Below are positions 52,068-57,468 of a stretch of DNA of 64,000 nt, in pieces (position 1 is the first letter of the stretch; the number at the start of each line of letters is the position of its first letter). The stretch spans positions 124,001 through 188,000 of the forward strand of contig NZ_FQVX01000001.1 of the NCBI RefSeq assembly GCF_900129495.1. The letters are read 5' to 3'. Source of the DNA: Geodermatophilus nigrescens (GTDB lineage Bacteria > Actinomycetota > Actinomycetes > Mycobacteriales > Geodermatophilaceae). Below the pieces are notes generated by a model. The model had not been told where the DNA came from. It searched no databases and saw nothing but the letters and a program-made list of their open reading frames with translations. The position numbers were made by a program, and so were the translations under genes.

Positions 52068-55000
52068 GTGAAGACCTGGCTCGACGCGTGGCCGGTGTTC
52101 CGGCAGCTGACCGGTCCCGACCCCCTCGGACGCGGCGCCGCGGCGCGCAGCAAGGCGACGGAGGGCGTGGTGAGCCGCACGGCCACCGCCGACCGCGTCG
52201 TCCAGAGCGTGTGCCCCTACTGCGCGGTGGGCTGCGGGCAGCGGATCTACGTGAAGGACGAGCAGATCGTCCAGATCGAGGGCGATCCCGACTCGCCGAT
52301 CAGCCGTGGACGCCTGTGCCCCAAGGGCAGCGCGAGCAAGTCCCTGGTGACCAGCCCGACCCGGGTGACCAAGGTCCGCTACCGCCGGCCGTACGGCACC
52401 GAGTGGGAGGACCTCGACCTCGACACGGCGATGCACATGATCGCCGACCGCGTCCTCGAGGCCCGGCGCAAGGGCTGGCAGGACGAGAACGACGGCAAGC
52501 GCGTGAACCGCACCATGGGGTTGGCGAGCCTCGGAGGGGCGACCCTCGACAACGAGGAGAACTACCTCATGAAGAAGCTGTACAGCGCCATGGGCGCCAT
52601 ACAGATCGAGAACCAGGCGCGCATATAGCACTCCGCCACGGTGCCCGGTCTGGGTGCCTCGTTCGGACGTGGCGGTGCCACGAACTCCCAGGAAGACCTC
52701 GCGAACTCCGACTGCATCGTCATCGAGGGTTCCAACATGGCCGAGTGCCACCCGGTGGGTTTCCAGTGGGTGAGCGAGGCCAAGGCGCGCGGCGCGAAGA
52801 TCATCCACGTCGACCCGCGGTTCACCCGCACCAGCGCGATCGCCGACCTGCACGTGCCGCTGCGCATGGGCACCGACATCGCCTTCCTCGGCGGGCTGAT
52901 CCGGTACGTCCTCGAGAACGACCTGTACTTCAAGGAGTACGTCGTCGCCTACACCAACGCCGCGGCGCTGGTGAGCGAGGAGTTCGCCGACGCCGAGGAC
53001 CTCGGCGGCCTGTTCTCCGGCTTCGACCCGGAGAACAACACCTACGACGAGTCCACCTGGCAGTACGAGCCGGAGGAGCCGCCGCACTCGGGCTCCGACG
53101 ACCCGGCCGGTGCCGCCGAGCAGGACGAGCTCGAGGACCACCCCGAGATCCGCAAGACCGACAAGGCGCAGGCCGCCGGCAGCGGCGGCCCGCCGATCGC
53201 CGCCAAGCCGAAGCGCGACGAGACGCTGCAGCACCCGCGGACGGTCTTCCAGGTCCTCAAGCGGCACTTCGCCCGCTACACCCCGGAGATGGTGGCCGAG
53301 GTCTGCGGCGTCGAGCCGGAGGCGTTCCTGCAGGTGGCCCGCTGGGTCACCGAGAACAGCGGCCGCGACCGGACGACGGCGTGGGTGTACTCGGTGGGCT
53401 GGACGCAGCACAGCGTCGGCGCGCAGTACATCCGCACCTGCTCGATCCTGCAGACGCTGCTGGGCAACATCGGCCGGCCCGGCGGCGGCATCCTGGCCCT
53501 GCGCGGCCACGCCAGCATCCAGGGCTCGACCGACGTCCCGACGCTGTACAACCTGCTGCCCGGCTACCTGCCGATGCCGCACGCCAAGCAGCACGAGTCG
53601 CTCGACGACTACTGCGCCGACGCCGCCGGCAAGGCCGGGTTCTGGGGCAACAAGCGCGCCTACATGGTCAGCCTGCTCAAGGCCTGGTGGGGCGACGCCG
53701 CGACGGCGGAGAACGACTACGCCTTCGACCACATGCCGCGCATCGACGGCGACCACAGCTCCTACCAGCAGATCAAGGACATGATCGAGGGGAAGATCTC
53801 CGGCTACTTCCTGGTCGGCGAGAACCCCACGGTCGGCCACCCCAACGGCCGGATGAACCGCTTCGGCCTGGCCAACCTCGACTGGCTGGTCGTCCGCGAC
53901 CTGCAGCTGATCGAGTCGGCGACCTTCTGGAACGAGTCGCCGGAGATCGAGACCGGCGAGCTCGCCCCCGAGACCATCGCCACCGAGGTCTTCTTCATGC
54001 CCGCGGCGTCGCACGCGGAGAAGGAGGGGACCTTCACCCAGACGCAGCGGCTGCTGCAGTGGCGGCACAAGGCCGTCGATCCGCCGGGCGACGCCAAGAG
54101 CGACCTGTGGTTCTTCTTCCACCTCGGCCGCATCCTGCGCGAGCGCCTCGCGGGCTCCACCGACCCGCGCGACCGCCCGCTGCTCGACCTCACGTGGGAC
54201 TACCCGGTGCACGGGCCCGACCAGGAGCCCAGCGCCGAGGACGTGCTGCGCGAGATCAACGGCGTCGGCCCCGACGGCCGCGCGGTCTCCGGGTACCTGG
54301 AGCTCAAGGACGACGGGTCGACGTCGTGCGGCTGCTGGATCTACTCCGGCGTCTACGCCGACGAGGTCAACCAGTCCGCGCGGCGCAGGCCCGGCCGCGA
54401 GCAGGGCCAGGTCGCCTCCGAGTGGGGCTGGGCGTGGCCGTACAACCGGCGGGTCCTCTACAACCGCGCCTCGGCCGACCCCGACGGGAAGCCGTGGAGC
54501 GAGCGCAAGAAGTACGTGTGGTGGGACGAGGAGGCCGGCCGCTGGACCGGCGTCGACACCCCGGACTTCGAGGCGACCAAGCGACCGGACTACGTGCCGC
54601 CGGAGGGGGCCCGGGCGCAGGACGCGATCGGCGGCTCCGACCCGTTCATCATGCAGGGGGACGGGAAGGCCTGGCTGTACGCGCCGGCGGGCGTCGTCGA
54701 CGGTCCGCTGCCGACGCACTACGAGCCGGCGGAGTCCGTCGTCGAGAACGCCCTGTACAAGCAGCAGGCGAACCCGACGATCGAGCACATCAACGGCCCG
54801 TGGAACCGGGAGAACCCGTCGCTGAGCCCGGTCTTCCCGTTCCAGGTGACCACCTACCGGCTCACCGAGCACCACACCGCCGGCGGGATGAGCCGCACGC
54901 TGCCCTACCTCTCGGAGCTCCAGCCGGAGTTCTTCGTCGAGGTCAGCCCCGAGCTCGCCGCGCTGCGGGGCCTGGTCAACGGCGAGTTCGCGACGCTGGT

Positions 55001-55358
55001 GAGCACCCGGACGGCGATCGAGGCGAAGGTCCTGGTCACCGAGCGGATGCGGCCGATCCGGCTGCGCAGCGGCCAGGTCGTGCACCAGATCGGGATGCCC
55101 TACCACTGGTCCTACAGCGGCATCTCCACCGGCGACTCGGCCAACGACCTGCTCGGGATCGTGCTCGACCCGAACACGCACATCCAGGAGGACAAGGTCA
55201 GCACCGCCGACATCCGGCCCGGACGGCGCCCGCGCGGGCCCGAGCTGCTCGAGTTCGTGGAGGGCTACCGGCGCCGCGCCGGGGTCGAGTCCGGCCGCGT
55301 GGGCGTCAACGGCCGGGAGCCGGTGGCCGCCGAGGCGGGGGAGGGGTCGCAGCAGTGA
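52068..55358 (+). CDS. fdhA: Formate dehydrogenase alpha subunit with UAG-encoded selenocysteine
   Basis: 1096 residues if TAG at 52626 is read through. Start VKTWLDAWPVFRQLTGPDPLGRGAAA and CPYCAVGCGQ...RGRLCPKG (Cys49, 52, 56, 84 for a 4Fe-4S cluster) match actinobacterial formate dehydrogenases; no Tat signal is present. At residue 187 ENQARI-TAG-HSATVPGLG falls exactly where relatives have Sec or Cys as the molybdenum/tungsten ligand. The frame then continues unbroken (SFGRGGATN, SNMAECHPVGFQW, VGENPTVGHPNGRMNRFG) to TGA, followed by the beta and membrane subunits. A SECIS-like hairpin follows TAG. The reading as one gene is strong; identity of the inserted residue as Sec is inferred. A weak -10-like CACAGT lies seven bases before the GTG. 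Confidence 0.93.
52626..52628 (+). other. In-frame UAG codon, probable selenocysteine codon
   Basis: TAG is codon 187 of fdhA. Both flanks are conserved protein sequence in the same frame (ENQARI before, HSATVPGLG after). E. coli formate dehydrogenases have Sec encoded by UGA followed by His at this site. Six other genes in the window use TAG as a normal stop, so its meaning must depend on context. Confidence 0.9.
52640..52658 (+). promoter_or_regulatory. SECIS-like hairpin
   Basis: GGUGCCC (52640-52646), loop GGUCU (52647-52651), GGGUGCC (52652-52658): seven pairs including two G-U. It starts 11 bases after the UAG, as in E. coli fdhF, and the codon pair GGU CUG stands at the same codon distance from the recoded codon as in fdhF. 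GGUCU is the loop recognised by SelB there. Confidence 0.85.
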
Positions 55359-56419
55359 CGACGATCAGCTCGGCGAGCGCGGCCTTCACGGGCAACGACC
55401 CCGAGAACCGGCTCTTCGGGCCGGTCCCGGACGTGACCGGGCAGTCCGGCTACGAGACCGACCACCCGGCGCGGGTCGGCTTCTTCACCGACACCTCGGT
55501 GTGCATCGGCTGCAAGGCCTGCGAGGTGGCGTGCAAGGAGTGGAACACCCTGCCGATGGACGACTCGCACGGCGTGCGCGACGTCATCGGGCTGTCCGGG
55601 ATGTCCTACGACAACACCGGCCAGCTGGGGGCCAACTCCTGGCGGCACGTGGCCTTCATCGAGCAGTCGCGCGCCGTCGACCTGCCCATGCCGACCTTCG
55701 GCCGCCCCGGCGACGACCGGCGGGGCAGCGGCCCGTCGGTGGCGGAGGGCGAGAACGACGGCAGCCTCGCCGCGGGGCAGCAGTCGAGCGTGCTCAACGC
55801 CGAGGCGCTGAGCGAGTTCGACCCGCAGACCGGGCAGAGCGGCACCGACAAGCAGATCCGGTGGCTCATGAGCTCCGACGTCTGCAAGCACTGCACGCAC
55901 GCCGGCTGCCTCGACGTGTGCCCCACCGGGGCGCTGTTCCGCACCGAGTTCGGCACCGTCGTCGTCCAGGGCGACATCTGCAACGGCTGCGGCTACTGCG
56001 TGCCCGCCTGCCCGTACGGCGTCATCGACCAGCGCAAGGACGACGGCCGGGTCTTCAAGTGCACGATGTGCTACGACCGGCTCACCGACGGGCTGCAGCC
56101 GGCCTGCGCCACGGCCTGCCCCACGCAGTCCATCCAGTTCGGCAACCTCGACGAGCTGCAGGCCCGGGCCGACGCACGGCTGGCCACGCTGAAGAGCCAG
56201 GGTGTGGAGACGGCGCGGCTCTACGGCCGGGACGAGGACGACGGCGTCGGCGGCGCGGGGGCGTTCTTCCTGCTGCTCGACGAGCCGGAGGTCTACGGGC
56301 TGCCGCCGGACCCGGTGGTGACCACCCGCGACCTGCCCTCGATGTGGCGCGCGGCGGCGGCCGGCGCGGCGATGATCGCCGGCGTCGTGATCTCGTCGTT
56401 CCTCGGGCGGCGACCGTGA
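55355..56419 (+). CDS. fdhB: Formate dehydrogenase beta subunit, four-cluster ferredoxin-type
   Basis: 354 residues. Cysteine sets for four 4Fe-4S clusters: CIGCKACEVACKEWN, CKHCTHAGCLDVCPTGAL, CNGCGYCVPACPYGV and CTMCYDRLTDGLQPACATACP. It carries electrons from the alpha subunit toward the membrane. A C-terminal hydrophobic helix (AAAAGAAMIAGVVISSFLG) anchors it, as in FdnH-type subunits. The GTG overlaps the fdhA stop (GTGA). An insertion rich in Asp/Gly/Ser (about 105-150) lies between the first two clusters. Confidence 0.95.
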   Translation: MTTISSASAAFTGNDPENRLFGPVPDVTGQSGYETDHPARVGFFTDTSVCIGCKACEVACKEWNTLPMDDSHGVRDVIGLSGMSYDNTGQLGANSWRHVAFIEQSRAVDLPMPTFGRPGDDRRGSGPSVAEGENDGSLAAGQQSSVLNAEALSEFDPQTGQSGTDKQIRWLMSSDVCKHCTHAGCLDVCPTGALFRTEFGTVVVQGDICNGCGYCVPACPYGVIDQRKDDGRVFKCTMCYDRLTDGLQPACATACPTQSIQFGNLDELQARADARLATLKSQGVETARLYGRDEDDGVGGAGAFFLLLDEPEVYGLPPDPVVTTRDLPSMWRAAAAGAAMIAGVVISSFLGRRP

Positions 56420-57468
56420 CCGAGGGGCTGACCGCGCCGGGCGCCGGCTGGCGGCGGGCCGACGGCCCGGCCGCGGAGGCCCGCGGCAAGCGGCGGCGCA
56501 GGGGCGGGCGGCGCGGCGGCGGTGGCGAGGTCGCCATGGTCGACGACGCCACCTTCACGTCGTACTACGGCCGCCCGATCGTCAAGCCGCCGGTGTGGAA
56601 GTCGCCCGACGTCCCGCTCTACCTGTTCCTCGGCGGGATGGCGGGGTCGTCGTCGATCCTGGCGGCGGTCGCCGACGTCACCGGCCGGCCGACGCTGACC
56701 CGGGTCAGCCGCTACACCGCCGGCGGCGGGGCGCTGGCCTCGGTGGTCTTCCTCATCCACGACCTCGGCCGGCCCGAGCGGTTCCTGCACATGCTGCGGG
56801 TGTTCAAGCCGACGTCCCCGCTGTCGGTCGGGTCCTACATCCTCGCGCCGTTCAGCGGAGCGGCCGCGGCGACGGCGGCCGTGGAGCTGCTCGGCTGGTT
56901 CCCGCGGCTCAAGCGCTTCGGCGGTGTGGTGTCGGCGCTGTTCGGCGGGCCGCTGGCCACCTACACCGGCGTGCTGCTGGCCAACACCGCGGTGCCCTCG
57001 TGGCACGCGGCGCACGACCAGCTGCCGTACGTCTTCGGTGGCTCGGCGATGGCGGCCGGCGGCGGCGTGACGATGGTCTTCACGCCGGTGGCCGAGGCGG
57101 CGCCGTCGCGGCGCACCGCGGTGGCGGGCGCCGCGATCGAGCTCGCGGTCATGCACCGGGTGGAGCACGACCACGGGATCGTCAGCGAGCCCTACCTCGA
57201 GGGGCGGCCCGGCGCGCTGCTGCGCGCGGCCAAGGCGTGCACCGCGGCCGGTGCGGCGCTGACCGTCGTCGCCGGGCGCCGGCGGGCCGGGGCCGTGGTG
57301 GCCGGGGTGCTGCTGGCGGCCGGCTCGCTGCTCACCCGGTTCGGCGTGTTCGAGGCCGGGCTGGTGAGCGCCAAGGACCCGAAGTACACCGTGGTGCCGC
57401 AGCGCGAGCGGCTGGCGGCCAAGGAGGCCGCGAAGCTGGACGGGCACGCCTCGACGATCACCCGGTGA
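56416..57468 (+). CDS. NrfD/PsrC-type membrane subunit of formate dehydrogenase
   Basis: 350 residues. A basic Gly/Arg stretch (about 20-38) leads to TSYYGRPIVKPPVWKSPDVPLYLFLGGMAGSS, then about eight or nine membrane helices with FLIHDLGRPERFLHMLRVFKPTSPLSVGSYIL, the NrfD signature. It takes the place of a cytochrome b subunit and should pass electrons to menaquinone. It overlaps fdhB by GTGA, forming the third gene of the fdh operon. No fdhD, selA, selB, selD or tRNA-Sec gene is found in the window. Confidence 0.92.
   Translation: MTEGLTAPGAGWRRADGPAAEARGKRRRRGGRRGGGGEVAMVDDATFTSYYGRPIVKPPVWKSPDVPLYLFLGGMAGSSSILAAVADVTGRPTLTRVSRYTAGGGALASVVFLIHDLGRPERFLHMLRVFKPTSPLSVGSYILAPFSGAAAATAAVELLGWFPRLKRFGGVVSALFGGPLATYTGVLLANTAVPSWHAAHDQLPYVFGGSAMAAGGGVTMVFTPVAEAAPSRRTAVAGAAIELAVMHRVEHDHGIVSEPYLEGRPGALLRAAKACTAAGAALTVVAGRRRAGAVVAGVLLAAGSLLTRFGVFEAGLVSAKDPKYTVVPQRERLAAKEAAKLDGHASTITR

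Follow-up and report, generated by a model that had tools for sequence, protein, structure and literature searches.

The formate dehydrogenase locus

The window is a stretch of 64,000 nucleotides from the forward strand of Geodermatophilus nigrescens (GCF_900129495.1, NZ_FQVX01000001.1, 124,001 to 188,000), and positions without a prefix are those of the window. The host genome, G000, comprises 4.74 Mb in 11 contigs and is 99.77% complete. Translation from 52068 to 55358 yields a single frame with one internal stop, a TAG flanked by ENQARI and HSATVPGLG, as described in an earlier sequence-only reading, which placed a TAG at codon 187, the Sec/Cys ligand position, within a continuous frame (Table 1). 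With codon 187 taken as a residue, the protein scores 1920.7 bits against the NCBIfam profile 'formate dehydrogenase' (NF041513; cut-off 1400), spans positions 2-1067 of its 1067, and carries three molybdopterin-enzyme domains above Pfam cut-offs. By a crude scan of GC per codon position, no other TAG in the window lies between two coding-like frames. Automatic annotation truncates FdhA at the UAG.

Table 1. Features of the fdhA locus (window positions).
Feature	Position	Strand	Description
fdhA, formate dehydrogenase alpha subunit	52068..55358	+	GTG start, TGA end; 1096 residues with codon 187 read through
AUA, rare Ile codon directly 5' of UAG	52623..52625	+	Same in 70/70 TAG fdhA loci read
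TAG, Sec/Cys ligand position, codon 187	52626..52628	+	Between ENQARI and HSATVPGLG
SECIS-type hairpin	52640..52658	+	Stem 52640-52646 with 52652-52658, 7 bp; loop GGUCU 52647-52651; 11 nt 3' of UAG
Iron-sulphur (beta) subunit gene	55355..56419	+	GTG start overlaps fdhA stop; without internal stops
NrfD-like membrane subunit gene	56416..57468	+	GTG start overlaps beta stop; without internal stops

The genes for the beta and membrane subunits lie downstream and are intact, as had been noted. The beta protein has a Fer4_11 domain above the Pfam cut-off and falls below the NCBIfam cut-off for the formate dehydrogenase beta subunit (180 versus 334.7 bits). The overlaps of starts and stops at 55355 and 56416 suggest that the three genes may be translationally coupled.

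Conservation of the site among relatives

FdhA relatives were collected by scanning contigs of GTDB species, from which the best 80 of 213 were taken (L023-L102). Among these 80, TAG occupies the site in all 50 other named loci of the family type that cover it (L023-L072); 49 are titled with Geodermatophilaceae genera or the family name and one, L040, is titled 'UNVERIFIED_ORG: Bacillus'. Of the remaining loci in the same set (L073-L102), all but one are from outside the family, 15 with TGA and 14 with TGC or TGT; the exception, L092, is a 51st locus of the family type, on a Blastococcus metagenome-assembled contig, and starts beyond the site. The check proposed with the sequence-only reading, UAG at this site in related genomes, thus finds TAG throughout these family relatives. 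FdhA matches occur in 100 of 112 family genomes, and in 98 of those 100 a match spans residue 187 with a TAG inside. The letters themselves were read in 70 TAG fdhA loci (the window, the 50 named loci and 19 from family genomes), the remainder being represented by the stop count.

From G034 comes only an FdhA fragment that lies past the site. Both fdhA copies of G079 (L171, L296) have lost the Sec codon and the hairpin through two different deletions with a frame change; these deletions share their downstream end point, which may reflect genuine loss or misassembly around the hairpin, and the G079 match rows also show a TGA and a TAG within fragments. Rows with both TGA and TAG in G024, G009 and G029 were considered as signs of a second recoded codon and set aside, the TGA near residue 1090 being the natural end of the gene.

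A conserved hairpin downstream of the UAG

The hairpin reported after the TAG was located at the position given in Table 1. All seven stem pairs form in 66 of 70 TAG loci, 6 of 15 TGA loci and none of 14 Cys loci, and the TGA loci without a full stem mainly miss the outermost pair. The loop reads GGUCU or AGUCU in every TAG (70/70) and TGA (15/15) locus, and GGUCU is found in 1 of the 14 Cys loci. In a set of 17 distinct sequences from FdhA and UGSC, pairing holds in 97.5% of cells, and two-sided changes fill 26 cells against 5.9 in shuffles, a covariation signal that vanishes when the partners are slid. Weaker measures of covariation were reached more often by chance: further pair types in 57 of 500 shuffles and two-sided-change pairs in 12 of 500. 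The hairpin after the UAG is conserved and shows compensatory changes.

Selenocysteine machinery of the host genome

G000 has one match above the Rfam cut-off for tRNASec, which scores 66.6 bits over all 91 positions. Its anticodon is CUA, and no copy with UCA exceeds the cut-off. The genes selD, tRNASec, selA and selB stand side by side (locus L009), and selA, selB and selD each have a single match above their curated cut-offs: 413.8, 277.6 and 389.2 bits for SelA, SelB and SelD against 267.9, 242.25 and 125. The SelB match covers the first 341 of 581 profile positions, and the protein carries a C-terminal winged-helix domain. In known SelB proteins, the winged-helix domain binds the SECIS hairpin. 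Both genomic checks that had been proposed, for a tRNASec with anticodon CUA and for selA, selB and selD, therefore came out positive, the tRNA being the only one of its family above the Rfam cut-off in G000 and the sel genes adjoining it.

A second UAG-containing gene

The UAG-plus-hairpin pattern is present in only two G000 genes, fdhA and a member of the UGSC family (NF041046). The latter (G000:C2:928120-928548) reads ALAD-UAG-GSC and has a hairpin of 7 bp with loop AGUGU, 11 nt after the UAG. Of the 112 family genomes, 54 have a UGSC match, which exceeds the cut-off in 48; 72 of 95 matches contain one internal stop, which is always TAG, and 23 contain none. In the 22 UGSC loci read, TAG stands at the U of the motif.

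A hairpin model was applied to the whole of G000; being built from fdhA and UGSC hairpins only, it could miss other selenoproteins. It scored 53.3 bits at fdhA, 44.2 at UGSC and 23.0 or lower elsewhere. Seven of its ten best matches begin with TAG, and among those seven only fdhA and UGSC combine seven pairs in register with coding-like frames on both sides. The five other TAG matches were rejected as UAG genes, having 1-3 pairs in register and a composition that is not coding-like on both sides. AhpC was likewise rejected as a third UAG gene in G000, where none of seven AhpC-TSA matches is interrupted by a stop. By a crude analysis, UAG seems still to terminate other genes, so that its reading as selenocysteine would be at best context-dependent.

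Interpretation of the fdhA UAG

The fdhA UAG is very probably decoded as selenocysteine by the genome's own tRNASec(CUA), because the same genome carries a tRNASec whose anticodon matches the codon. That Sec would be inserted at this UAG had been proposed in the sequence-only reading, and the proposal gains support from the tRNA, from selA, selB and selD, and from the TAG in relatives. Weighing against it are the ARAGORN label of the tRNA (see below), the restriction of the UAG-plus-hairpin pattern to two genes of G000, the uninterrupted AhpC matches, the two less clear covariation measures and the apparent use of UAG as a stop elsewhere. By analogy with established bacterial Sec insertion, SerRS would charge tRNASec with serine, SelA would make Sec-tRNA with selenophosphate supplied by SelD, and SelB would bind the hairpin and deliver Sec at the UAG in competition with release factor 1. 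The Sec residue would ligate molybdenum or tungsten, and readthrough would carry ribosomes on to the overlapping start codons of the beta and membrane subunit genes.

In a graded version of this explanation, the UAG serves chiefly as a stop under regulation: translation would mostly end at codon 186, with Sec inserted only when selenium or formate is plentiful, and the codon would thereby gate the operon. The apparent use of UAG to end other genes and the rare codon before this UAG fit such a role, as do the starts of the next two genes inside the preceding stop codons, since early termination would probably lower downstream translation. However, competition with release factors is usual at bacterial Sec codons, so these features show nothing special, and we regard a mainly regulatory stop as unlikely.

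It appears highly improbable that a pyrrolysine system, or an amber suppressor such as Ser-tRNASec escaping SelA, inserts some residue other than Sec at the UAG. The idea is prompted by the fact that ARAGORN labels the tRNASec(CUA) as tRNA-Pyl (L001:1501-1596), a label through which automatic annotation may report pyrrolysine tRNAs in Geodermatophilaceae. The CUA anticodon is indeed common to pyrrolysine insertion at UAG and to the system described here, but this tRNA fits the tRNASec family over its full length and adjoins selA, selB and selD. PylS (TIGR02367) is far below its cut-off in G000 (best match 24.5 bits versus 178.15), while the control genome set had one match above it, and pyrrolysine was rejected on this ground. 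Moreover, a SelB-type hairpin is kept where the codon is TAG or TGA and lost where it is Cys, and the position is that of the Sec/Cys ligand.

Least credible, to the point of being nearly negligible, is the view that a gene normally carrying a Cys or UGA codon here acquired the TAG by nonsense mutation, or shows it through faulty sequencing or assembly: it could appeal to a single in-frame stop in a single assembly and to the pseudogene-like copies in the family (G079, both without the site), but TAG recurs in all 50 other named loci of the family type that cover the site, from many strains, the frame is intact after it, a matching CUA tRNA is present, and TAG lies two substitutions from TGA or TGC. 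The sequence-only reading had counted TGA to TAG as one change; in fact two positions differ, as they do between TGC and TAG, which makes a read error less likely.

The AUA codon preceding the UAG

The codon before the UAG is AUA in all 70 fdhA loci read, those of small, separately placed groups (see below) included, although AUA makes up only 50 of 2578 Ile codons elsewhere in the same genes. UGA-containing relatives have AUU (14/15) or AUA (1/15) at this position, and Cys relatives have Val codons (14/14). Because UGSC genes have GAC (9) or GAU (13) before their UAG, the AUA rule belongs to fdhA and not to UAG generally.

The window contains fewer CTAG tetranucleotides than a second-order model predicts (13 against 47.4), and CTAG is tolerated in 9 of 22 UGSC loci. 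The mean unpaired probability of the codon region, by third base, is 0.58 for C, 0.73 for A and 0.70 for U. An unpaired region combined with CTAG avoidance was considered as the reason for AUA and rejected, since both disfavour AUC but give no account of A versus U. The AUA-UAG pairing could instead stem from shared descent or patch copying without function. An independent-pairs test of AUA against UAG rests on 3 starred pairs, which agree in nearly all pairings and are too few for significance.

Two codes within one family

Of the 112 family genomes, 108 yielded a tRNASec, among them all 96 of good quality. The anticodon was read in all 108 and is CUA in 101 (75 by exact pattern, 10 from 30 loci and 16 more) and UCA in 7. 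The UCA genomes belong to genera g5 (3), g6 (1) and g7 (3). A UCA tRNA from g7 (L112) differs from the G000 tRNASec at 7 of 92 bases. Two of the differences fall in the anticodon, two replace U-A by C-G at the closing pair of the anticodon stem and so compensate each other, and three lie elsewhere. By eye, selA-like frames adjoin the UCA tRNA in L109 and L112. No FdhA match at E 1e-100 was obtained in the UCA genera, and the UGSC matches in two of their genomes (G066, G072) are without an internal stop. CUA and UCA thus both occur within one GTDB family, and the switch required two base changes in the anticodon and two per codon. The presence of UCA in relatives elsewhere suggests that it is the older state.

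One Geodermatophilus genome (G058) has a second tRNASec, with UCA, besides the usual CUA copy. It lies on a contig of 2763 bases (L108, contig 17) whose GC is lower (0.66) and part of which resembles ISAs1 transposases, and it may represent either contamination or a mobile element returning the old code. Outside the family, 322 other genomes of the order were scanned with the tRNA pattern, which matched in 2. At one of these matches (G280), ARAGORN finds no tRNA. The other (G230, from another family and 82% complete) carries a CUA tRNASec together with frames that by eye resemble selA and selD, on a contig of 4845 bases (L266, contig 194) that is probably misbinned.

Separate fdhA lineages under one code

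Quick-type trees were built from 58 chosen FdhA proteins (34 TAG, 15 TGA, 9 Cys), in which the Sec position was masked. TAG rows are dispersed over the tree as follows: a main group of 26; L172 and L174 together; L176 beside a Kineosporiaceae UGA protein; and L173, L177, L178 and L187 inside a branch that holds Micromonosporaceae UGA proteins, with L175 adjoining. The small groups were named after the tree was seen. Five codon changes are needed on this tree, at least four of them forced by starred branches. A single TAG clade is rejected (AU p 5.5e-43), as is joining each small group to the main group (p 6.9e-5, 1.5e-6, 5.1e-4 and 2.0e-6). Two later parts of FdhA also reject one TAG clade (p 3.7e-9 and 6.3e-7), whereas the 222 columns around the codon, which have less power, do not reject it (p 0.178), with one change forced by starred branches.

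All eight small-group rows carry TAG. A CUA tRNA is present in six of their genomes (G057, G039, G104, G052, G092, G001); in the other two, G097 and G098, both incomplete, tRNASec was not found. The combination of TAG with separate placement implies that foreign or anciently paralogous fdhA genes carry UAG within the family. A search for patch recombination that carried the TAG, by identity along the gene, gave no clear long tract. Upstream of the site, L176 (G104) is nearest to the main group at the DNA level.

We tentatively suggest that the UAG code may be enforced on newcomers, a scenario that is plausible though somewhat more doubtful than not. Foreign or anciently paralogous fdhA genes of UGA lineages would repeatedly have acquired the six-base AUA-UAG in CUA hosts, by substitution or through a short patch from a resident gene. 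The rare AUA would be part of the signal by which UAG is read, and the UCA sister genera would represent the state before the switch.

Relation to known systems

Geodermatophilaceae with tRNASec(CUA) and UAG-containing selenoproteins, namely formate dehydrogenases and UGSC-motif proteins, were reported by Mukai 2016, according to excerpts of a citing account (PMC5330540) that names three genomes and adds AhpC for Blastococcus saxobsidens. The attribution of UAG-directed selenoproteins in this family to Mukai 2016, made in the sequence-only reading, agrees with those excerpts. The window is a further instance of this known family code change, and the phenomenon is already reported. As far as the excerpts of the citing account go, the two systems share the family, the anticodon, the codon and two protein families (formate dehydrogenase and UGSC). 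They differ in AhpC, which is listed for B. saxobsidens whereas the G000 AhpC matches are without an internal stop; moreover, those excerpts mention neither UCA genera nor separately placed fdhA groups nor an AUA before the UAG. According to PMC10778597, UAG, UAA and sense codons have been reassigned to Sec in some species. The excerpted parts of a 2026 review (PMC13188914) mention UAG solely as a stop and as a Sec codon in engineered systems. Excerpts of PMC7609411 and PMC9312934 hold nothing further on the UAG-Sec case.

The fetched E. coli fdhF resembles the window's fdhA in having a Sec codon separated by 11 nt from a hairpin with GGUCU in its apical part, and both systems comprise SelA, SelB, SelD and tRNASec. 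In contrast, the E. coli gene has UGA, anticodon UCA and a Val codon (GTC) before the Sec codon, where the window has UAG, CUA and Ile (ATA). Closer counterparts are the actinobacterial UGA formate dehydrogenases of Micromonosporaceae, Kineosporiaceae, Kocuria and others, which are 62-68% identical over the best segment and have their Sec codon at the same site. This set shares the loop GGUCU/AGUCU with the window (15/15) and differs in its TGA (15/15) and preceding AUU (14/15).

A literature search of titles and abstract openings, with most subscription journals outside its coverage, returned nothing on UCA-bearing sister genera, separate UAG fdhA lineages or AUA before UAG. The coexistence of two codes in one family, the sharing of a single code by several fdhA lineages and the pairing of AUA with UAG are thus additions beyond the literature found, which is weak evidence of their novelty. 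UAG-directed Sec insertion belongs to a small number of natural examples of an amino acid moving to a new codon with its machinery retained. With both codes present in Geodermatophilaceae, the route of the codon switch would be testable by swapping the anticodon, the codon and the preceding AUA.
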